DNA from: a virus
Direction: 5' to 3' (one strand)
Virus record (IMG/VR): IMGVR_UViG_3300025044_000049
Location: 1 to 42,726 of that record
DNA length: 42,726 nucleotides
The position numbers were made by a program, and so were the translations under genes. The notes beneath the pieces are model-generated. The model did no database searches, was not told where the DNA came from, and was given only the letters and a program-made list of their open reading frames with translations. Numbering within the stretch: the stretch's first letter is position 1; the number at the start of each line of letters is the position of its first letter. Shown here piece after piece: positions 4,944 through 39,953 of this stretch.

Positions 4944-7415
4944 TTAAGAAACAGAAACAATATCGCGGCAAAGGCGAAAACGAATTTCAGGCGTGCAAGC
5001 TTCAGTAAAGCCTTTTGCGTACCAAAATGAGCGCGGGCCTTTTACGTAAAGACTGCACAGACCACCCGCCCATGTGTTGTCCCTATCAGGGGCACCCACA
5101 CCGTTATTAGTCCCACCGATATATAGTTTTGGATTAGACCCGCTAGGCACTCCATCTAGGGTGATCAAAAGCTCTCGCGCTGACGCCGATGTATTGACTA
5201 TCTCTACTGACGTGATCGCAGCACTGCTCGTATCGTCGTCGAAATAAATGCCAAAGTTTTCTGGTGGAACGCCGCCGCGAAGCCAGTCGGTATCTTCTGT
5301 GACCAAACCTTCTGGGCCATCGATGGTGCACGTAATCTCGTCACCATCAAGCACCGCAGCCGATACATAAAGGGGGATAAAGTCTTCGCCTTCGCGAATA
5401 AGACGATAAACATGCGCAAACAGCTCGCCAGTTTGCAGTTTGTAGCTCATATGGATGCCGCTATCGACGGCAATTTCACCGTATACCGGCCCAATACAAA
5501 CCACATCAGGATCAGCCAAGGAAGTGGCTAACGCCTGCACGCATGTAAGTGGAACATTGGTTTCATCGAATGCATCAGAATTACGATTGTTCGGCTGGTA
5601 GGTCAGAACCTTTGGTCGTACGCCTGCGGCAATGTTGCCTGGTAACGCTTCACCATACCCACACACCTCGTCCGCAAACGCAGAGAGCAACGCACCATAA
5701 GTCGGATTAGCTCCGCCATCACCATCGTCAGGGCCAGCTTCATGGCCAATCAGGAAGTGTGCGTACATGATGCTTTCTTTTCCGTACACACCCGCTAACA
5801 TCGAAGAGGTGGCAGGGATCATTTGCGCAATGTTGTCACCCTTAGTAGTGCCTGCCATAAACTCGGTCAGCGGCGTACCGCCTTCGTTGCTTGTGATCTG
5901 CACGTATACACGCTGCTCAGTTGAATTAAGCGTACTAAGTGGCTGCGAGTCCATTGCAACAATGGAAAATTGAATACAGTCTGGCGTCCAAGAGGCCACG
6001 CCATTTATAAACTCCGCATCCTGTCCGGCAGATGTAAGCTCTGCAATATCCCCCGGCTGATACTCAATTGGCGTATCCCCCCAATTCCGTGATCCCTTTA
6101 TACCCATCGCTCGGTGCGCGTCACGAATTCCGAGCAGAATAGTGCGTAAGTTATTTGATGCGCCACCGGCACCAACATTAGACTGACCTGAATAAGACAA
6201 ATTCTCTATTGGCTTGCTCGTCGCAGCAAATCGTATACCATTCCCTGTTTTTGGGACTATGACATCAACCGGCCCGAAAAAAGTAGGCATCGTCATTAAA
6301 TAATTATTGTCGTCAAAGTTGCGATGGTCGTACCCCGCGAAACCAGCGATATGCTCAGCAGATGAACCGCCCGCGCTAATGAGATCCCGAATCATTTGCT
6401 CGGTACGCGCTGCGAACTTCCAGATATACGACTCACCCTTAGTGTTTACTGCTATCGCTGTGCGGCCGTCACTATCCGCAGCCAGAGGCGTGCCGTATGC
6501 TCCGTCACGGGCAATCTCAGAAGCCTGACCGGCCTGCACCGTCTTGGCAGACCAGACGCCGCCGCGCTTCCAGCCACCCGCAACGCGCAGCGCTTTATCT
6601 GTCCATGCCTGTATATACCCTACGATACCGTCACGAGGGTTGGCATTTACACGGCCTTCGATGGCTTGTTTATTTGGCTGTGTATCGATGTAATTAGCCT
6701 CTGGGCCCTCAATCACCTCGTACAAATCAACGTAGCCGTAAACGCTGCTACTAGGCACAGTGAAGCTCTGCCCCACTTCCCTATTTGCTGAAATTACAAC
6801 AGTGGCGGACGCGCCAGTTAAACCAGGCGCAGCTGCAAAACTAACCGTAGGTGCTGATGTATATCCGCGCCCACGAGCTGTGATTTCATACGCGCTAACT
6901 GCACCACTAACTACAGTAAACCAACCCGCCGCACCACTACCCGCACCACCCGTAAATGCCAGTGCGTATATGCCTTCTGTGCCGCCAGAACCAGCAACCA
7001 GTGAATCGAGTGAATAAACACCACTACTCAGAGCGTCAGCAGTATTGGCGTATCTCTCACCCGCAGCCTGAGCGGAACTTGCTGACGCTGCAGCATTAAT
7101 GGCGGACTGAGCTACCTGGCTATTTAAATCTTGGATTTCAACTAATACCTCAGTCACATCAACAACCAAAATATCCCGCAGTAACGGTGCCGCATACCCA
7201 CCTTTACTGACTTGAATGTCTACCCTTTCCGCCGATGTGTAGACAAATACTTTCGCGCTGGCATCTGCATATGCGGGATTACCGAGCGGGGTTTCGCTGT
7301 TGTCTGAAAAAAGGGTGGCGCGGGTTTGTGTGCCTGCCAAATAAACATCTATGGTTGCGCCAGGCAGCAAGGCGCCGTCCTCGGCCCTTGCAGCGAAGAA
7401 TTGAATGGGTTGCAT
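4944..7415 (-). CDS. Tail fibre/tailspike with SGNH (sialate O-acetylesterase-like) domain
   Basis: An 823-residue virion protein. Residues 1-85 resemble phage fibre head-binding modules (PIQFFAARAEDGALLPGATIDVYLAG). An Ala-rich helical linker follows (about 95-125), then Gly-rich repeats. The region at about 405-665 carries SGNH-esterase signatures: GQSN at 410-413 with the nucleophile Ser 412, GHEAG at 557-561, and Asp 651/His 655 in DSGIH. It probably removes O-acetyl groups from host surface polysaccharide during adsorption. The C-terminal 160 residues look like beta-rich trimer or binding modules. It follows the gpJ-like gene, the usual site for side or central fibre genes. Confidence 0.82.
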   Translation of the reverse strand: MQPIQFFAARAEDGALLPGATIDVYLAGTQTRATLFSDNSETPLGNPAYADASAKVFVYTSAERVDIQVSKGGYAAPLLRDILVVDVTEVLVEIQDLNSQVAQSAINAAASASSAQAAGERYANTADALSSGVYSLDSLVAGSGGTEGIYALAFTGGAGSGAAGWFTVVSGAVSAYEITARGRGYTSAPTVSFAAAPGLTGASATVVISANREVGQSFTVPSSSVYGYVDLYEVIEGPEANYIDTQPNKQAIEGRVNANPRDGIVGYIQAWTDKALRVAGGWKRGGVWSAKTVQAGQASEIARDGAYGTPLAADSDGRTAIAVNTKGESYIWKFAARTEQMIRDLISAGGSSAEHIAGFAGYDHRNFDDNNYLMTMPTFFGPVDVIVPKTGNGIRFAATSKPIENLSYSGQSNVGAGGASNNLRTILLGIRDAHRAMGIKGSRNWGDTPIEYQPGDIAELTSAGQDAEFINGVASWTPDCIQFSIVAMDSQPLSTLNSTEQRVYVQITSNEGGTPLTEFMAGTTKGDNIAQMIPATSSMLAGVYGKESIMYAHFLIGHEAGPDDGDGGANPTYGALLSAFADEVCGYGEALPGNIAAGVRPKVLTYQPNNRNSDAFDETNVPLTCVQALATSLADPDVVCIGPVYGEIAVDSGIHMSYKLQTGELFAHVYRLIREGEDFIPLYVSAAVLDGDEITCTIDGPEGLVTEDTDWLRGGVPPENFGIYFDDDTSSAAITSVEIVNTSASARELLITLDGVPSGSNPKLYIGGTNNGVGAPDRDNTWAGGLCSLYVKGPRSFWYAKGFTEACTPEIRFRLCRDIVSVS

Positions 7416-26928: not shown

Positions 26929-27363
26929 CTAACCTGCGCGCTTCAACCAAGGCAGCTCAACCATCAGGTTAGGCTCAATAGCGCGATGCAATTGGTCTAG
27001 CTTGCTGTAGTACGTTGTTTCAGTTCGCCAGCCCATTCGCTTCATCTGGCGCGACACAATCGGCATAGGATCCGTTAGGTACCTAACCCGCGCCAACTTC
27101 ACAAGCTCAACACCCGCCGCGCCCATACCGCCAATCTCGGGGCTTTGACGCATGGCAACTAGCGCTGCCTCTACCGCCGCACCCACAACGCCAAGATCAC
27201 CGGTATACAAAGCCCTACCGCCTTCACCGCCCGTACCTACAATCATCACACCCTTGTTGGCGATAGCCGCACCCAGTGGGCATTGCAACGATGCCGTACC
27301 GTGCCGTCTAAACTCGTCGCCCCAGGCAATCAGCGCCACTTCAATCGCATTAATCACTGTCAT
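26929..27363 (-). CDS. Probable late-gene antiterminator (Q-like)
   Basis: A 144-residue protein with the layout of phage antitermination Q/DUF1133-type regulators. An N-terminal helix holds a WGDEF/R motif (INAIEVALIAWGDEFRRHG), the middle a helix pair (VEAALVAMRQSP). A C-terminal helix-turn-helix-like part (MPIVSRQMKRMGWRTETTYYSKLDQLHRAI) follows. Its place after the replication genes and before the lysis genes and a leader terminator is that of lambda Q. The start ATG 27363 has GGGGAG only two bases upstream; GTG 27357 is the alternative. The iteron array lies directly upstream. Confidence 0.55.
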   Translation of the reverse strand: MTVINAIEVALIAWGDEFRRHGTASLQCPLGAAIANKGVMIVGTGGEGGRALYTGDLGVVGAAVEAALVAMRQSPEIGGMGAAGVELVKLARVRYLTDPMPIVSRQMKRMGWRTETTYYSKLDQLHRAIEPNLMVELPWLKRAG

Positions 27364-27379
27364 TACTCCCCAAAAATCC

Positions 27380-27667
27380 AACCCTAGTAAAATCGCTCAA
27401 CCCTAGTAAGACCCTAGTAAATTATTTTCTTTATATTTCATACATTTATATGTCATTTACTAGGGTTACTAGGGTTACTAGGGTTGTTTTGCCTCGCGTA
27501 GAGAAAAAAACGCCTCAAATATCGCTATATTTACGCGTGTGCGCGCGCGTTTAACCCTAGCAACCCTAGTAAATCGGAAAAACGCCCCGCAAACCCGCGT
27601 GAATGCTGCACCTCATTTACTAGGGTTGAAAAAACCAACCCTAGTACAACCCTAGCAACCCTAGTAA
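27380..27667. repeat. Iteron-like array, probable replication origin
   Basis: Twelve copies of the nonamer CCCTAGTAA (three are variants, with CAA or TAC ends) lie within 288 bases. Eight are in plus orientation (27382, 27401, 27412, 27555, 27564, 27639, 27650, 27659) and four inverted (TTACTAGGG at 27457, 27466, 27475, 27617). An A/T-rich 36-base segment (27421-27456) and a GC-alternating run (about 27535-27550) lie inside. The array sits directly after the helicase gene's stop, as an origin with iterons and an AT-rich melting region would. A regulatory role for the adjacent Q-like gene is possible too. Confidence 0.7.
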
Positions 27668-27669
27668 AT

Positions 27670-29418
27670 TCAGCTCCCATATGCGCCACTTCCCGCCGCT
27701 GGCGCGGTAAAGCACACGCTTTTTTCCCATTTTTCGGGGTGCCAGCCGGCTTTTAATGCCTCTAACCGCCACTCATGCACGTATTCGCCCACTTGCCTTG
27801 CGTCATTCATCTTTAAATCTTTAGGCGGGCACGGCTGAAAGAAAATAGATCGTCGTCGTTGATTGTTTTCATCCATCCACCCAATTTGGCTTTCAGACTT
27901 CGCCAAATCTTGCTTGGTAGACATAAACAAACCGAACTTGGTGTCAGACAGCGAATGCTCTTTGAGCTTACTACACCACTCCAAGAACAAGTCGTGCAAA
28001 TCCTGCGTGCGACACAGCGTAAATGGTACACCCAGCTCGCCGGTACGCCACTGATTATAAAACGTCTCCCAGCTTGCTCTACTCAGCTCAACGAGCCGTT
28101 GGCGCGCTGGTGTATGCGGTGGCCTTGTGCGTTCGTCAAACTCGCCTACATCGTAATTAAGCAGGTAGTCATAAAACGCGGCAATGCCTCCGTTCTCAAG
28201 CTCCCAGCCAATCCGCTTTTGCGCTTTCTCTGGCAGGGTAAGCAAGGGCCATAACACCAACATTCTGCGATCGTTCTCGCCAATGGGCCACGGCATAATC
28301 TCATTCGACAGGAAAACAGCGTTCATGTAGTTCGCCTCTTCCCAGCCATTCACAAACTTACTTTCAATGCGCACCGTTTTACCGGTCACCATGTGTTTAA
28401 TTTTACCCACCTGGTTATACCGCTGGTCTCGGCTTACCACCTCTTCAAACAAACCATAAAGCTTATTGGCCTGCCACGCTGTCCAGTTAGACTCTAACTG
28501 AGCCTGACCAACCGTGGCGCCGTAGTCGCCATAAATTGGCCGCATAATACCGTCAAACAGCAGCGACTTACCCGAGCCTTCCATCGTCGAATGCATCAGC
28601 ACCGCCGTGTCCATTTTGGCCCCCACACGCTGTAATGGCAGTGCCAGCCAGCATGTTAACCAATGCACCGCATCGTCCTGCTTATTGCATAAAAATCGTA
28701 ATAGGCCACGCATACCCGAGCACAATTCAAGATCGGGGTGCGGGGTAAGAGGTAAACCCTCAAAGGTATTAATGGTGTCAGCGGGTGGCTCTTTCATACG
28801 CGGGTCAAACAGTAAATTCTCAGAAGGAATAACCCGCCGCTGATTACTGTTTTGCCACATTGTAAACGTATCACCCAACGCCAACTTAACCGCCGCCGCC
28901 GGCAAGCGCAGCCGTAATCGACGGTCATAAATATCTTGCGACCCATCTAAATACACATAGCGCCAAAATACATCGTCGGCATTGCTAACGTCCGACGACT
29001 TAAGACGCTTGCCCAGCTTAGCTTCTGTTTCTAACCGTTTAGCCTGGTCAGGATCTATGCCTTTTTTATCTGGCAAGTTGTACCACGCCGTCGCCAGCGC
29101 CTTACTTACCAACACCTCAAACCCTGTCTTCTTAACGACAGCCTTGCGGTATAAATCAAATACCTTGGTCTCACCTTCCACCAGCGCAAACCGAGTGGTC
29201 ACCTTAGCCAGCGTCCACCCCTCCCCGTACCCCTCGGTAGCTGGAGCCGCGCCAAATTCGACCTCGTCTTCAGATGGGGTTGGGGGAAGATCTACATCAG
29301 GCGAGCCAGCAGGCCGCACAGTAGGCTCACTATTAGCCGCCTGCAACAACTGAAACCGCACTACCTCTATGCCGTGCTCACAATGCAGGTCATTCCAATC
29401 TAACTTGCCGCCGCTCAT
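27670..29418 (-). CDS. Phage replicative helicase/primase-helicase (DUF5906-like)
   Basis: A 582-residue superfamily-3-style helicase. Walker A is STMEGSGKSLL (about 277-287), Walker B LYGLFEEV (about 320-327) and a sensor-like AVFLSNEIMPW follows near 370. The N-terminal 200 residues lack primase motifs, which are in the neighbouring gene. The two genes overlap by four bases and together resemble split primase-helicase replication proteins of temperate phages. It probably unwinds the phage origin; the adjacent iterons end within three bases of its stop. Confidence 0.85.
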   Translation of the reverse strand: MSGGKLDWNDLHCEHGIEVVRFQLLQAANSEPTVRPAGSPDVDLPPTPSEDEVEFGAAPATEGYGEGWTLAKVTTRFALVEGETKVFDLYRKAVVKKTGFEVLVSKALATAWYNLPDKKGIDPDQAKRLETEAKLGKRLKSSDVSNADDVFWRYVYLDGSQDIYDRRLRLRLPAAAVKLALGDTFTMWQNSNQRRVIPSENLLFDPRMKEPPADTINTFEGLPLTPHPDLELCSGMRGLLRFLCNKQDDAVHWLTCWLALPLQRVGAKMDTAVLMHSTMEGSGKSLLFDGIMRPIYGDYGATVGQAQLESNWTAWQANKLYGLFEEVVSRDQRYNQVGKIKHMVTGKTVRIESKFVNGWEEANYMNAVFLSNEIMPWPIGENDRRMLVLWPLLTLPEKAQKRIGWELENGGIAAFYDYLLNYDVGEFDERTRPPHTPARQRLVELSRASWETFYNQWRTGELGVPFTLCRTQDLHDLFLEWCSKLKEHSLSDTKFGLFMSTKQDLAKSESQIGWMDENNQRRRSIFFQPCPPKDLKMNDARQVGEYVHEWRLEALKAGWHPEKWEKSVCFTAPAAGSGAYGS

Positions 29419-30461
29419 GCAGCCACCTGCTTAGGCGCATCCGGAAACACCGCCACCAAACCCAACTCATTCGCCAATTCAGTTGCCTTGGTGCGTCCGG
29501 GGTTACCTTTGCTTGTTGGGTCATCATCACCGGCAATAATAATTTTTGCCTTGGGGTAACGCTCACACAAACCCCGCACCACCACAGCCATATTACCCAC
29601 ATCAATGGTCATTACCGTGGGCCACTCAGACGCCAAATAAACAGACGCAGCCGTGGAATACCCCTCAGCCACCGCAATCACATCGGCATCATCCACAGAC
29701 CCTATGCAATGCATACAGCCCTTTTTACGAGCATATTTAGGGAACAACTTAGTGCCATTGGCCGCTATAGACTGAAAAGACCACAACACACCCTCAGCAT
29801 CTACAAAAGGCACCAAAAACGTGTCGGGCTTCAACATCATAAAACTGTGGTTATCTGGGCGCGGATTCGGCAAATCATCAAAAAAGCGTTTAATGTCATC
29901 ACCGGTCCACAAATCGCAGCGCTGCAGTTTGTCATCAATACTCAGCACCACGGTGCACTTCATAAACCGCACACCAAACGCCCCAACCTGCTTGCGGTCT
30001 AAATACTCACTCTTGCCACGGGCAACGGTAAACTCTGCCAACAAGCGCTGAGTGGCCAACTGCACCTGATGTTGCATAACGGCTAAACGGGCTTCGTCGG
30101 CCTCTACCTCTGCTTTGCGTTGTTTGCGACGTGCTTCGTTCTCGGCTTTGCGCTGCCGCTTTTCTTCATCCGTTAACTCTTCTTTGTCAGGCGCCCAACC
30201 TTTATCTTTGGCTAAATAAATAACCGTTCCAATAGTGACAGAGCCGGCTTTGACGCCGTTCCAAACTGATTTCGCCGCACCACTATCGTAAACTTTACCA
30301 GCTCCGCGACTCCAACTATCCCAATCAGCAAAGCCATCTTCGCCAAACTCAGATTTAACACCGGTTGCCACTTTCACCCAGGTATCACGATCAATATCAG
30401 GTGAGATAAAGCTCAACAAATTCCGCAGATCAGACAATTCTAAATTTGGGTAATCAGGCAT
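29415..30461 (-). CDS. Phage DNA primase (PriCT-2 and TOPRIM domains)
   Basis: A 348-residue protein. The first 75 residues are a PriCT-type domain (LRNLLSFISPDIDRDTWVKVATGVK ... WDSWSRGAGKVYD). A charged helical linker follows (EEKRQRKAENEARRKQRK). The C-terminal TOPRIM fold has its catalytic Glu in DVIAVAEGYSTAASVYLA and the acidic triad in IIIAGDDDPTSKG. No zinc-binding motif is visible at the N-terminus. It makes primers for phage replication together with the helicase. The start at 30461 has GAGG seven bases upstream and overlaps the previous stop. Confidence 0.88.
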   Translation of the reverse strand: MPDYPNLELSDLRNLLSFISPDIDRDTWVKVATGVKSEFGEDGFADWDSWSRGAGKVYDSGAAKSVWNGVKAGSVTIGTVIYLAKDKGWAPDKEELTDEEKRQRKAENEARRKQRKAEVEADEARLAVMQHQVQLATQRLLAEFTVARGKSEYLDRKQVGAFGVRFMKCTVVLSIDDKLQRCDLWTGDDIKRFFDDLPNPRPDNHSFMMLKPDTFLVPFVDAEGVLWSFQSIAANGTKLFPKYARKKGCMHCIGSVDDADVIAVAEGYSTAASVYLASEWPTVMTIDVGNMAVVVRGLCERYPKAKIIIAGDDDPTSKGNPGRTKATELANELGLVAVFPDAPKQVAA

Positions 30462-30762
30462 TGTCAGCCTCACTTTTGCTGCTATGCTCAGATCTTTGGG
30501 TTAAGCGCACACGATCAGAAAGGAGCTCTACAGATGCACTCAACAGACTTGACCGAAACCCTTGAACTTCTGCGTAAAGCAATTGATGCATACGACCGGA
30601 TACCGACAGTAGAAAATCTTCCAGCGCTTCGTCTGCACAGTCGACTACTATCCCTTCACCTAGACATGCATAAACTTCATGAGAAACTTCAAAAGCAAGA
30701 GAGCAAGACACGCCCCCCATTGTGAGCTTTGCCTCTGATTTTTTAACAGTCTTATCACCCAC
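30454..30762 (-). CDS. Hypothetical early-operon protein
   Basis: A 102-residue protein of unknown family starting at GTG 30762, which overlaps the TraR-like stop and has GGAG seven bases upstream. The middle (SLAFEVSHEVYACLGEGIVVDCADEALEDFLLSV) looks like a small mixed fold; the end is charged. It fills the operon between the zinc-finger and primase genes with overlaps on both sides, which supports it being real. A plus-strand frame (30534-30725) occupies the same DNA. Confidence 0.55.
   Translation of the reverse strand: MGDKTVKKSEAKLTMGGVSCSLAFEVSHEVYACLGEGIVVDCADEALEDFLLSVSGRMHQLLYAEVQGFRSSLLSASVELLSDRVRLTQRSEHSSKSEADNA
30534..30725 (+). CDS. Antisense small ORF, possible gene
   Basis: A 63-residue mostly helical, Leu-rich product (TLELLRKAIDAYDRIPTVENLPALRLH...). 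It has a good Shine-Dalgarno (AAAGGAG) eight bases before ATG 30534. It lies wholly inside the minus-strand gene at 30454-30762, so at most one of the two is likely to be expressed strongly. No family is recognised and there is no clear promoter. Confidence 0.3.
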   Translation: MHSTDLTETLELLRKAIDAYDRIPTVENLPALRLHSRLLSLHLDMHKLHEKLQKQESKTRPPL

Positions 30763-34448: not shown

Positions 34449-34743
34449 ATACACCTTAGGCGCCGCCGCGAAAATGCTTGGCACTGGCCGCAACCGCCTG
34501 ACCGCACAGCTTAAACAGCGCGGCATTCTCGACCACAAATGCCTACCCAAAAAGCAAGCCGACATCGATGCCGGCCGCTTTGCTGTAGAGCTAAAACTGC
34601 ACACTGGCAACCCAGCGTGGAATCAGGGTAAAGGCCAGCTTTACCACCAAACCCTAGTGACCCAAAAAGGCCTTAGCTGGTTAGCTACATTACTGAACGT
34701 AAAAGTAATACACGCCGACGAGCAAAAGGAGCGCGCCGCATGA
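34438..34743 (+). CDS. KilAC-domain antirepressor-like protein
   Basis: A 101-residue protein that matches the KilAC C-terminal domain of phage antirepressors: YTLGAAAKMLGTGRNRLTAQLKQRGILD (3-30), then the QLYHQTLVTQKGLSWLATLLN end. The N-terminal Bro/Rha half usually fused to KilAC is absent. It starts at ATG 34438 with AGGAGGTG upstream. KilAC is thought to bind DNA or protein partners in antirepression, so it may modulate CI or Cro. Confidence 0.8.
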   Translation: MPHKYTLGAAAKMLGTGRNRLTAQLKQRGILDHKCLPKKQADIDAGRFAVELKLHTGNPAWNQGKGQLYHQTLVTQKGLSWLATLLNVKVIHADEQKERAA

Positions 34744-37033: not shown

Positions 37034-37252
37034 ATGAGCGAAACAATAGGCAATAAATTGCGGGGTATGGAACATGCCCGCAACGCACACAATGAAAATA
37101 TCGCGCGTATTACAGCGATTCTGCCCACGCTAAAAGGGCCGGAAAAATTACGTGCAGAAAAAAGCATCGCCAACCTTAGCACCCAAGTGCGCGAAATAGA
37201 CAAGCACCTGTTCCGCTCTGAATGCACAAAATTCAGCGGGGTGGCGGCATGA
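37034..37252 (+). CDS. Small coiled-coil hypothetical protein
   Basis: A 72-residue helical protein (NKLRGMEHARNAHNENIARITAILPTLKGPEKLRAEKSIANLSTQVREIDKHL), likely a coiled coil or helical hairpin. CGGAG lies about seven bases before ATG 37034. It ends overlapping the next start (ATGA at 37249). No family is recognised. Confidence 0.6.
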   Translation: MSETIGNKLRGMEHARNAHNENIARITAILPTLKGPEKLRAEKSIANLSTQVREIDKHLFRSECTKFSGVAA

Positions 37253-37767
37253 TCTTATTTCAAATAACCATGGCCCTAACCGTGCTACTCATCGCCATGC
37301 TTGTCTGCCGCACAATTGTAGACGGCTGGCCAATAAAACCCAAAGTCATTGGTAAAAATTACCTGTCACGGTGGCACATCATTCCGCGCAACCGCTATTT
37401 TAATATTTACCTGCACAAATTTGTCGGCAGCGACGACGATCGCGCACTGCACGACCACCCGTGGCCCTCACTGTCATTCCTGCTAGCTGGCGGCCTTGCA
37501 GAAATAACCGACGAAGACAAAATAGCCGGCTGCCAAACGGTAAACTACCCGCGCTTTTTAAGGCCCATATTCAGACGCCGCAGCCACCAACACCGGCTAA
37601 TACTGCTAGGTAACAAACCCGCATGGACCTTATTTATTACCGGCCCACGCAAACATTTTGCCGACGGCGTAACACCGCGCTGGTTCTTCTACTGCCCGAA
37701 CGGCAGAAAGCCCTGGTACACCATGACCACACCAGACGGGCAGCAAAGCGGAGGCTGCGAGGAATGA
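37249..37767 (+). CDS. Cupin-like phage protein with N-terminal membrane anchor
   Basis: A 172-residue protein. Residues 3-22 (LFQITMALTVLLIAMLVCRTIV) form a membrane anchor. The rest (YLSRWHIIPRNRYFNIYLHKFVGSDDDRALHDHPWPSLSFLLAGGLAEI ... HRLILLGNKPAWTLFITGPRK) matches a widespread phage cupin-like family with the conserved HDHPW metal-type motif and WTLFITGP. The usual closing RxWGF motif is altered to RWFFYCPNG. Function unknown; metal binding through the two histidines is inferred. Confidence 0.75.
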   Translation: MILFQITMALTVLLIAMLVCRTIVDGWPIKPKVIGKNYLSRWHIIPRNRYFNIYLHKFVGSDDDRALHDHPWPSLSFLLAGGLAEITDEDKIAGCQTVNYPRFLRPIFRRRSHQHRLILLGNKPAWTLFITGPRKHFADGVTPRWFFYCPNGRKPWYTMTTPDGQQSGGCEE

Positions 37768-38366: not shown

Positions 38367-39953
38367 ATGAATCTCAACACCCAGTACCAACTCAACTACG
38401 CCAATAAAATTCGTGTGGATCTGTTCGCTGGTGGCGGCGGCGCGTCTATCGGCACCGAAATGGCTACCGGTATGCCGGCTGATATTGCCGTTAATCACAA
38501 TGACAACGCCATCAGCATGTATCGCGTCAATCACCCGCATACTAAGACATTTCAGTGCGACGTTTACGAAGTAAAACCACACGAAGTAACCCAAGACAGA
38601 GGCGTGGCACACTTGCATGCAAGCCCAGACTGCACCCATCACAGTCAAGCAGCAGGCGGCCAGCCTCGCAGCAAAAGTAGCCGGTCATTGTCTTGGGTAA
38701 TTGCTATGTGGGCAGGTCAAGCAAAGCCCGACCTGATCACTATGGAAAATGTAAAACAGATCAGAAATTGGGGGCCACTGATTGCGAAGCGATGCAAAAT
38801 GACAAAGCGCGTGATTAAACTAGACCGCAGTGTTGCTGCGCCAGGTGAATACGTCCCCGTTGACCAACAATTTTTAGTGCCAGACCCAAAACGCAAGGGT
38901 AAAACATGGCGCCGTTTTATTCAGCACTTAAAACGCTTAGGGTATGACGTAGAGCATAATTTATTAGTCGCTTGCGACTATGGTGCCGCCACCAGCCGTG
39001 AACGTCTTTTTTTAGTTGCACGCTGCGACGGACAGCCTATATGCTGGCCCGAGCCAACACATTTTAAAAACCCAAAACGCGGTCAAAAACGCCACCGCCC
39101 CGCATCAGATCACATCGACTTTTCACTGCCGTGCTCATCAATTTTTGATCGCGAAAAACCCTATGCCGACGCGACGTTGCGCAGAGTAGCCAAGGGCGTC
39201 ATCAAAGAAGTACTGAACTCTGCCAACCCGTTTATTGTGCCGATCGCAAACTGGTCCAACGAAGTGATCCACAATATCAACGACCCGCTACGCACCATTA
39301 CCGCTCAACCAAAGGGCGGCAGCTTTGCCGTGGTGGCGCCAACGCTTGTTAAATTCCGCGCCGATCATATCGGTCAGCGCATTGATGAGCCATTACCGAC
39401 GATAACCGCTGGCGGTAATAGCAAACGCCCTGCAGGCGCGCCACATGCACTGGGGCTAGCTTGCGCAAACCTCATCGAACTTAGACATAATTGCGATTCT
39501 CGATCAGTAAATAGCCCGCTATCAACCGTAACAACTAGCGGGGGTCACCACGCTTTAATCGAATGCACCCTATCGCAAGACGTGATTGAAGAAAAAGCCC
39601 TGCGCGTGGCTGCATTTTTAATGTCTTATTACGGCAGTGGGGGCAACGCCTCATCACTACACGACCCAATACCCACCATTACCACCAAAGACCGCTTGGC
39701 CCTTGTGACGGTTCACTTTGGTGACACGTCGCTGATTCTCATCGATATATGTTTACGAATGCTGCAACCAAAAGAACTGTATGGCTGCCAAGGCATGCCC
39801 AGCAATTTTATATTTGACCGCGGACACGATGACCGCCGCTTCACAAAATCAGCCCAGGTAAAAATGGTAGGCAACAGCGTTTCGCCCTACCCAATGGCCG
39901 CACTTGTTCGCGCCAATCTGCCAAGCACCTCAATGCTAAGGATCGCAGTATGA
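38367..39953 (+). CDS. DNA cytosine-5 methyltransferase
   Basis: A 528-residue C5-methyltransferase. Motif I is VDLFAGGGGASIG (17-29), motif IV SPDCTHHS with catalytic Cys 89, motif VI ENV (127-129), motif VIII TSRERLFLVA (209-218), and a motif X-like KMVGNSVSPYPMAALV ends the protein. Motif IV reads PDC instead of PPC/PCQ, as in a known phage/plasmid subfamily. Residues 305-440 hold four copies of a 'DPLpTITa' repeat in the target-recognition part. It probably protects phage DNA from host restriction; no partner endonuclease is visible. GGAG lies seven bases upstream of the ATG. Confidence 0.9.
   Translation: MNLNTQYQLNYANKIRVDLFAGGGGASIGTEMATGMPADIAVNHNDNAISMYRVNHPHTKTFQCDVYEVKPHEVTQDRGVAHLHASPDCTHHSQAAGGQPRSKSSRSLSWVIAMWAGQAKPDLITMENVKQIRNWGPLIAKRCKMTKRVIKLDRSVAAPGEYVPVDQQFLVPDPKRKGKTWRRFIQHLKRLGYDVEHNLLVACDYGAATSRERLFLVARCDGQPICWPEPTHFKNPKRGQKRHRPASDHIDFSLPCSSIFDREKPYADATLRRVAKGVIKEVLNSANPFIVPIANWSNEVIHNINDPLRTITAQPKGGSFAVVAPTLVKFRADHIGQRIDEPLPTITAGGNSKRPAGAPHALGLACANLIELRHNCDSRSVNSPLSTVTTSGGHHALIECTLSQDVIEEKALRVAAFLMSYYGSGGNASSLHDPIPTITTKDRLALVTVHFGDTSLILIDICLRMLQPKELYGCQGMPSNFIFDRGHDDRRFTKSAQVKMVGNSVSPYPMAALVRANLPSTSMLRIAV

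Follow-up and report, generated by a model that had tools for sequence, protein, structure and literature searches.

Gene context and organization of the iteron array

The DNA analyzed here is a virus record of 42,726 bases (IMGVR_UViG_3300025044_000049, positions 1-42,726; the whole of it is called the window), in which a DUF5906-type helicase gene is followed directly by an intergenic array of short repeats, or iterons, that is a candidate origin of replication. Megablast returned no near-identical phage record for the window. Twelve nonamers of the form CCCTAG(T/C)A(A/C) (CCCTAGYAM) lie at 27382-27667 and none lies elsewhere in the record; the expected count was 1.06 (standard deviation 0.91), and the maximum among 100 shuffles was four. 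Nine of the twelve are exact copies of CCCTAGTAA, the true repeat unit is approximately 11 nucleotides (nt) long, AACCCTAGTAA, and the word is written as TTACTAGGG in the comparison of the helicase family. Read along the plus strand, the sites are oriented in the order +++, ---, ++, -, +++. The features of the locus are as follows.

27380-27669, no strand: whole iteron array, the proposed origin, between the helicase stop and the next gene; its place is kept in relatives
27382-27420, plus strand: outer cluster of three iterons (27382-27390, 27401-27409, 27412-27420)
27421-27456, no strand: AT-rich spacer of 36 bases
27457-27483, minus strand: inner cluster of three abutting iterons (27457-27465, 27466-27474, 27475-27483)
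27491-27513, minus strand: T-run followed by a CTC-TACGC-GAG box, adjoining the inner cluster and recognizable in relatives
27532-27550, no strand: central GC-rich tract of 19 nt, alternating purine-pyrimidine
27555-27572, plus strand: inner pair of iterons (27555-27563, 27564-27572)
27617-27625, minus strand: single inverted iteron
27639-27667, plus strand: outer cluster of three iterons (27639-27647, 27650-27658, 27659-27667)
27670-29418, minus strand: DUF5906 (D5/NrS-1-type, SF3) helicase of 582 amino acids, the proposed initiator
27673-28131, minus strand: C-terminal domain of the helicase (residues 430-582), a predicted winged helix and the proposed iteron reader
29415-30473, minus strand: primase half, PriCT_2 and Toprim_3-like, a separate gene in the window
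26929-27363, minus strand: downstream "Q-like" gene (phrog_4300, with a weak match to the PA0613 family), not a likely iteron reader

The array fills the entire gap from the helicase stop to the next likely start at 27363. The original prediction, made from the letters of this DNA, had described twelve nonamers in two orientations, an AT-rich segment of 36 bases, a GC-alternating tract and an intergenic position, and all of these were confirmed; its statement that the array begins three bases after the helicase stop is right within one base, as the minus-strand stop codon ends at 27670 and two bases (27668-27669) separate it from the array. The sets at 27382-27420 and 27457-27483 flank the AT-rich spacer, and more sets lie beyond. 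An isolated near-copy of the repeat, AACCCTAGTGA, was also seen at 34650-34660, 7 kb from the array.

The window helicase matches DUF5906 at 63 bits, above the Pfam gathering score of 27.6, and its closest solved relative by sequence is the C-terminal region of the NrS-1 protein (E 9.8e-26), placing it among the DUF5906/NrS-1-type SF3 helicases. In fold comparisons NrS-1 was again the best match, followed by the rings of vaccinia D5, mpox E5 and AsfvPrimPol; these relatives suggest that the window helicase is of the ring-forming type, presumably a hexamer. The adjoining primase gene contains a PriCT_2 domain and a Toprim_3 match that falls below threshold, and both it and the helicase match families named DNA primase in PHROGs. 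In some relatives, the primase half is fused to the helicase.

Conservation of the array behind the helicase gene

Relatives of the helicase were collected from 24 viral-contig loci, 55 bacterial-genome loci and, initially, 8 of 187 matching phage records. The array test set comprised 85 loci, after setting aside three of the viral loci: L009 (the same as the window), L012 (whose array is the same as that of L011) and L032 (a short partial match). For each locus, the 450 bases following the helicase stop were searched for the 8-mer with the most copies, and its count was compared with 200 dinucleotide shuffles. The search of other phages that had been put forward with the original prediction found an array behind the same type of helicase at 80 of the 85 loci, where the best 8-mer, present in 4-12 copies, exceeded all 200 shuffles, but the word differs between lineages; because several loci are near-identical, the 85 should not be taken as independent. 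In the three control stretches taken from each locus, no best 8-mer had more than three copies. The word is also confined to the array, with 588 copies inside and 20 outside across the 80 loci (25.0 expected outside), and the first site lies a median of 10 nt past the helicase stop.

Some records show particular patterns. In L097, the many copies of GAGGAAGA probably come from a stretch annotated as a Glu-rich protein. Behind the helicase of Moraxella phage Mcat7 (L100), there are at most three exact copies of one 8-mer, TTGGTGCA. Phages of Moraxella catarrhalis differ in word, with TGTGCAGGG in Mcat4 (L038) and few TTGGTGCA-like copies in Mcat7. Finally, a circular Klebsiella plasmid record of 8.7 kb (L098; CP067839, reverse strand) combines an integrase and a major-capsid-like gene with a DUF5906 helicase. 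Words of the GAGACA/AAGACA type, with 15 matches, form an array at 5422-5761, approximately 555 nt behind the helicase stop, and a GC-alternating stretch lies beyond the array. This record is possibly a phage satellite whose origin is of the kind proposed here.

A constant scaffold with a changing word

Layouts were read in the direction of the helicase gene, with F denoting the G-rich strand, in the 83 loci with at least six sites. The window layout is FFFRFF-RRRFFF (the hyphen marks the centre), and the identical pattern recurs in 25 of these loci; twelve sites are present in 41 and six on each side of the centre in 33, counts that depend on the score threshold. A full mirror, FFFFFF-RRRRRR, occurs in four loci, all of them distant. 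In L081, successive sites are 11, 11, 44, 8, 9, then 91, then 9, 8, 44, 12 and 11 bases apart. Among 435 same-orientation pairs no more than 12 bases apart, the spacing between neighbours is mostly 9 (247 pairs) or 11 (101 pairs). A central alternating purine-pyrimidine run of at least 10 is found in 80 of the 83 loci. Control stretches average 5-8 per locus, although the longest among 20 controls attains that length too in 50 of the 83. In the 41 twelve-site loci, the right-hand spacer has a mean GC content of 0.29 vs 0.59 in the helicase gene. The T-run and CTC...GAG box beside the inner iterons were likewise observed in 18 aligned sequences that have different words.

The words carried on this scaffold are numerous. 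Pseudomonas-type relatives have TGTCTAGGG, TGGTTAGGG, TGTGTTGGG, TGTGTAAGG or TGTGTCAGG; elsewhere we found TGTGCAGGG (Hahella, in addition to Mcat4), TGTGCGGG (Stenotrophomonas phage S1), TCAGACAG (Halomonas phage H4907), GTTACGGG (Acinetobacter) and GCCGGAGG (Alcanivorax), and more exist. By eye there are approximately 25 clearly different words; the distinct top 8-mers number 32, some of them merely shifted. Four arrays (L056, L057, L058 and L075) mix TGTGTTGGG and TGTGTAAGG in about equal numbers, which looks like a word changing site by site.

An array of inverted copies might instead act as RNA, as a structured element at the end of the helicase transcript, and the transcribed strand does fold better than shuffles (z -6.5). 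Inverted repeat copies, however, give such folding in any protein-binding array; the array has no Rfam match and no terminator-like site, and copies in the same orientation are also kept alike, which pairing does not require. We therefore give an RNA element next to no weight.

Covariation of the word with the helicase C-terminus

The original prediction left the binding protein open, naming the helicase and the Q-like protein as candidates. We compared word distance with protein distance at the 54 loci with a clear word register, reduced to 41 representatives by collapsing helicases more than 96% alike, taking partial correlations on the helicase core (residues 149-425). Given the core, the C-terminus (residues 461-575) correlates with word distance at a partial r of 0.45, and this value stayed between 0.38 and 0.60 when any one word class was omitted. 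The corresponding values were -0.02 for the Q-like protein (-0.05 in a rerun), -0.02 for the CII-like protein, 0.02 for the zinc finger and, over aligned stretches at 21 of the 41 loci, -0.13 for the primase. Along the helicase, partial r peaks at residues 521-545 (0.50). Of the ten columns (out of 330) most strongly associated with word position 4, nine fall at residues 451-567. At equal core identity, identity over residues 461-535 was lower where words differ (0.46 vs 0.57, 0.55 vs 0.67, 0.69 vs 0.72 and 0.79 vs 0.82); because these gaps shrink in the upper bins, the effect is small among close pairs. Covariation thus speaks for the helicase C-terminus as the binder and against the Q-like protein.

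At 13 of the 41 loci, the nearest relative differs according to whether the core or the C-terminus is compared, and here the word follows the C-terminus in five, the core in none, and eight are tied. The clearest case is a prophage of Azotobacter beijerinckii (L045:5001-7060), whose word is TGACTAGGG. Its helicase core is 0.80-0.82 identical to those of L046, L047 and L050, which have the word TGTGTCAGG or one near it, whereas the identity of its C-terminus is just 0.35 to those three and as high as 0.56 to CTAGGG-type helicases; one CTAGGG-type locus, L048, is also close to it by core (0.81). From these identities, L045 is probably a natural swap of reader and sites together.

The C-terminal region itself (residues 430-582) is predicted to adopt a winged-helix fold, with a mean predicted local distance difference test (pLDDT) score of 90 from 42 sequences. 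Its best structural matches include RFX DNA-binding domains and the winged helices of origin recognition complex (ORC)/Cdc6 proteins, at modest Z scores of 4.8-5.6. Foldseek gave no match for the domain at E 0.001 or better, and its sequence profile gave weak matches to a "DNA primase" chain, 7ola (E 0.021), which we take to be a SaPI5 protein, and to RFX5 (E 0.55). The P4 and SaPI domains are not among the structural matches listed, which says nothing either way. With the fold prediction and the covariation considered together, the likely iteron reader is the helicase itself, acting through its C-terminal winged helix.

A one-residue code was tried and rejected. Residue 492 fits word position 4 in the 41 representatives (D/E to C, Q/H to G, A to T or C, G to C), but the fit rests on few changes on the core tree (four of the base, five of the residue class and five joint), the residue ranks only 18th of the 330 columns for the base at that position, and more distant relatives seem, by eye, not to follow it.

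The position of the array directly upstream of the Q-like gene suggests another role, as a late-gene control region holding sites for the Q-like (PA0613-family-like) protein or another transcription regulator of lysis and head genes. The Q-like gene lies behind the array in 67 of the 85 loci, and a homologue in Halomonas phage H4907 is annotated as an antitermination protein. Against this, the Q-like protein does not covary with the word when the core is taken into account, no promoter- or terminator-like site above chance was found near the array, and arrays beyond the shuffles occur at loci where no Q-like gene was detected (L031, L038, L040, L073, L077, L078, L080, L081, L083, L085 and L089-L093), although a diverged Q-like gene could escape detection there. 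We consider a transcriptional role unlikely, with a small chance of being right.

The array could also be an origin whose iterons are read by a host factor or an undetected phage protein, the covariation of the C-terminus being a by-product of linkage. Linked neighbours can covary via shared exchange, and the coding end of the helicase C-terminus adjoins the array; yet the Q-like gene, equally near on the opposite flank, does not covary, a host factor does not explain lineage-specific words, and the helicase C-terminus is a predicted DNA-binding fold. Such a reader has, in our estimate, a slim chance.

Several observations weigh against an origin read by the helicase C-terminus. GC skew shows no sign change at 27.4 kb. 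Five of the 85 loci (L028, L030, L033, L082 and L087) fail the 8-mer test; a looser site model recovered 8 sites in L028, 12 in L033 and a doubtful 10 in L030, leaving L082 (3 sites) and L087 (4 sites) without a convincing array by that model too. No such array is seen behind the related primase-helicases of four other phages, YuA, AXL_3, MW2 and pPM_01. A GGG(T) end is common to many words, and part of the contact between reader and word may accordingly be constant. The winged-helix matches, at Z below 8, may reflect a common arrangement only. Although none of 2000 permutations reached the C-terminal value of 0.45, such counts overstate certainty because distances between related phages are not independent. 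Outside the C-terminus, the helicase stretch 236-260 reaches a partial r of 0.37, the best there, and residue 132, likewise outside it, is the single column most strongly associated with the word as a whole. Last, where a related small terminase (TerS) is present (8 of 41 loci), word distance follows TerS (0.66) and not the C-terminus (-0.02).

This TerS correlation favours a role in packaging or partition, with the small terminase or a similar protein reading the repeats, and repeat clusters do occur at some packaging and partition sites. A related TerS is, however, present in only those 8 loci, and the array lies behind the helicase in phages whose downstream genes vary; we regard a packaging or partition site as highly improbable.

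Comparison with known origins

The lambda origin, to which the array had been compared in the original prediction, has its iterons inside the O gene, a separate initiator and an AT-rich region near the replication genes. The window shares iterons and an AT-rich region near replication genes, and the contrast drawn in that prediction holds, as the window array lies between genes and not inside an initiator gene. A lambda O-type origin was rejected on that ground, and a separate initiator is likewise not the case. Lambda is a less apt comparison than the satellite origins discussed below.

The alpha protein of P4 is a primase-helicase whose C-terminal origin-binding domain reads iterons at ori1 and crr, two separate iteron regions. 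The window has one array, as do the other loci (the whole record being seen for the window only), so the P4 layout was rejected; membership in the P4-family primases (TIGR01613) was rejected as well, at 11.0 bits against a cut-off of 108.7. The C-terminal domain of alpha is reported to be a winged helix (PMC10516667).

The closest layout is the pri-rep-ori module of Staphylococcus aureus pathogenicity islands (SaPIs) and Gram-negative phage-inducible chromosomal islands (PICIs), in which a primase and an initiator helicase are followed directly by an origin whose iteron sets surround an AT-rich region; in the accounts available, SaPI Rep uses its C-terminal domain to read iterons directly downstream of its own gene and seems to do so as two hexamers (PMC6092414, PMC7581432). 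The window likewise has its array directly 3' of the helicase gene with the primase adjoining. As for iteron binding by the C-terminus, a property of the pri-rep-ori type, the observations here are covariation and a predicted winged helix. The arrangement here differs from that type in its helicase group (DUF5906/NrS-1), in usually having twelve sites in four sets with a central GC-alternating tract, and in being carried by full-size temperate phages with head, tail and lysis genes. By analogy, the array is most likely a self-loading helicase origin working like the pri-rep-ori of SaPIs and PICIs.

The window itself looks like a temperate phage, because it encodes a CI-like S24 repressor, a CII-like gene and a DksA-like zinc finger together with tape measure, portal, major head, protease and large terminase genes. 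With the latter five present, a PICI, a satellite without full virion genes, was rejected as its classification. By PHROG name, the window also encodes a 528-amino-acid DNA methyltransferase (38367-39953) and a cysteine-dioxygenase-like protein (37222-37767).

Other systems share parts of this arrangement. Cch2 of the staphylococcal cassette chromosome SCCmec is described as a D5-related helicase forming hexamers and dodecamers, whose isolated C-terminal domain binds repeats just behind its gene (PMC7581432); its putative origin has only three direct repeats, and element and host differ from those of the window phage. The NrS-1 polymerase-helicase, although the closest solved relative, is unlike the window in being without an array: the available account gives a hexameric ring for its helicase part, an 8-nt recognition site that occurs twice across the genome, and a tail domain called a novel fold (PMC7102993). 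The RepA of PLE (PICI-like element) satellites is reported to belong to another family. Geminivirus Reps are rolling-circle initiators of single-stranded DNA viruses and are unrelated to the window helicase; they resemble it in that words vary between relatives, those of close relatives being described as different and read by the cognate Rep (PMC12548392).

A proposed mechanism

Comparison supports the original prediction that the array is probably a replication origin, in that (i) the array stays with the helicase, with or without a Q-like gene, (ii) it contains an AT-rich spacer, and (iii) its place and layout match those published for the origins of SaPIs and PICIs. Taking the covariation into account, we conclude that it is very probably an origin read by the phage's own DUF5906 helicase through the C-terminal winged helix. 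The helicase would bind the iterons with this domain, assemble as a ring around the origin and open the duplex, with the AT-rich spacer or the centre as the probable site, before starting to unwind; the neighbouring PriCT_2/Toprim-type primase would then prime. The word could change because reader and sites form one linked module, apparently exchanged together at least once, in L045.

More tentatively, and with somewhat less than an even chance, the array may be a mirror-like landing platform for a double ring, in which the six iterons on each side of the GC-alternating centre would seat the twelve subunits of two head-to-head helicase hexamers for two-way replication. The scaffold would then persist over long evolutionary spans while the word drifts or is swapped along with the winged helix, each lineage forming its own replication-specificity group. 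The site counts favour a platform of six plus six.

Among open PubMed Central (PMC) papers, covered by titles and the beginnings of abstracts and with subscription papers outside this coverage, we found none describing an array of the window type, and a term search of the available text of papers on the Mcat prophages and H4907 found no mention of "iteron". The self-loading type of origin is itself known; what is new here is a conserved, often mirror-like scaffold that carries many words together with a matching reader domain. These loci amount to a large natural collection of helicase initiators that change in step with their iterons, with approximately 25 words on one scaffold, making it testable how a self-loading ring helicase reads and melts its origin, and which winged-helix residues set which base. 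They also provide a simple rule for locating origins in unannotated prophages, and they widen the range of an origin layout described for satellites, adding ordinary temperate phages of Pseudomonas and other Proteobacteria.
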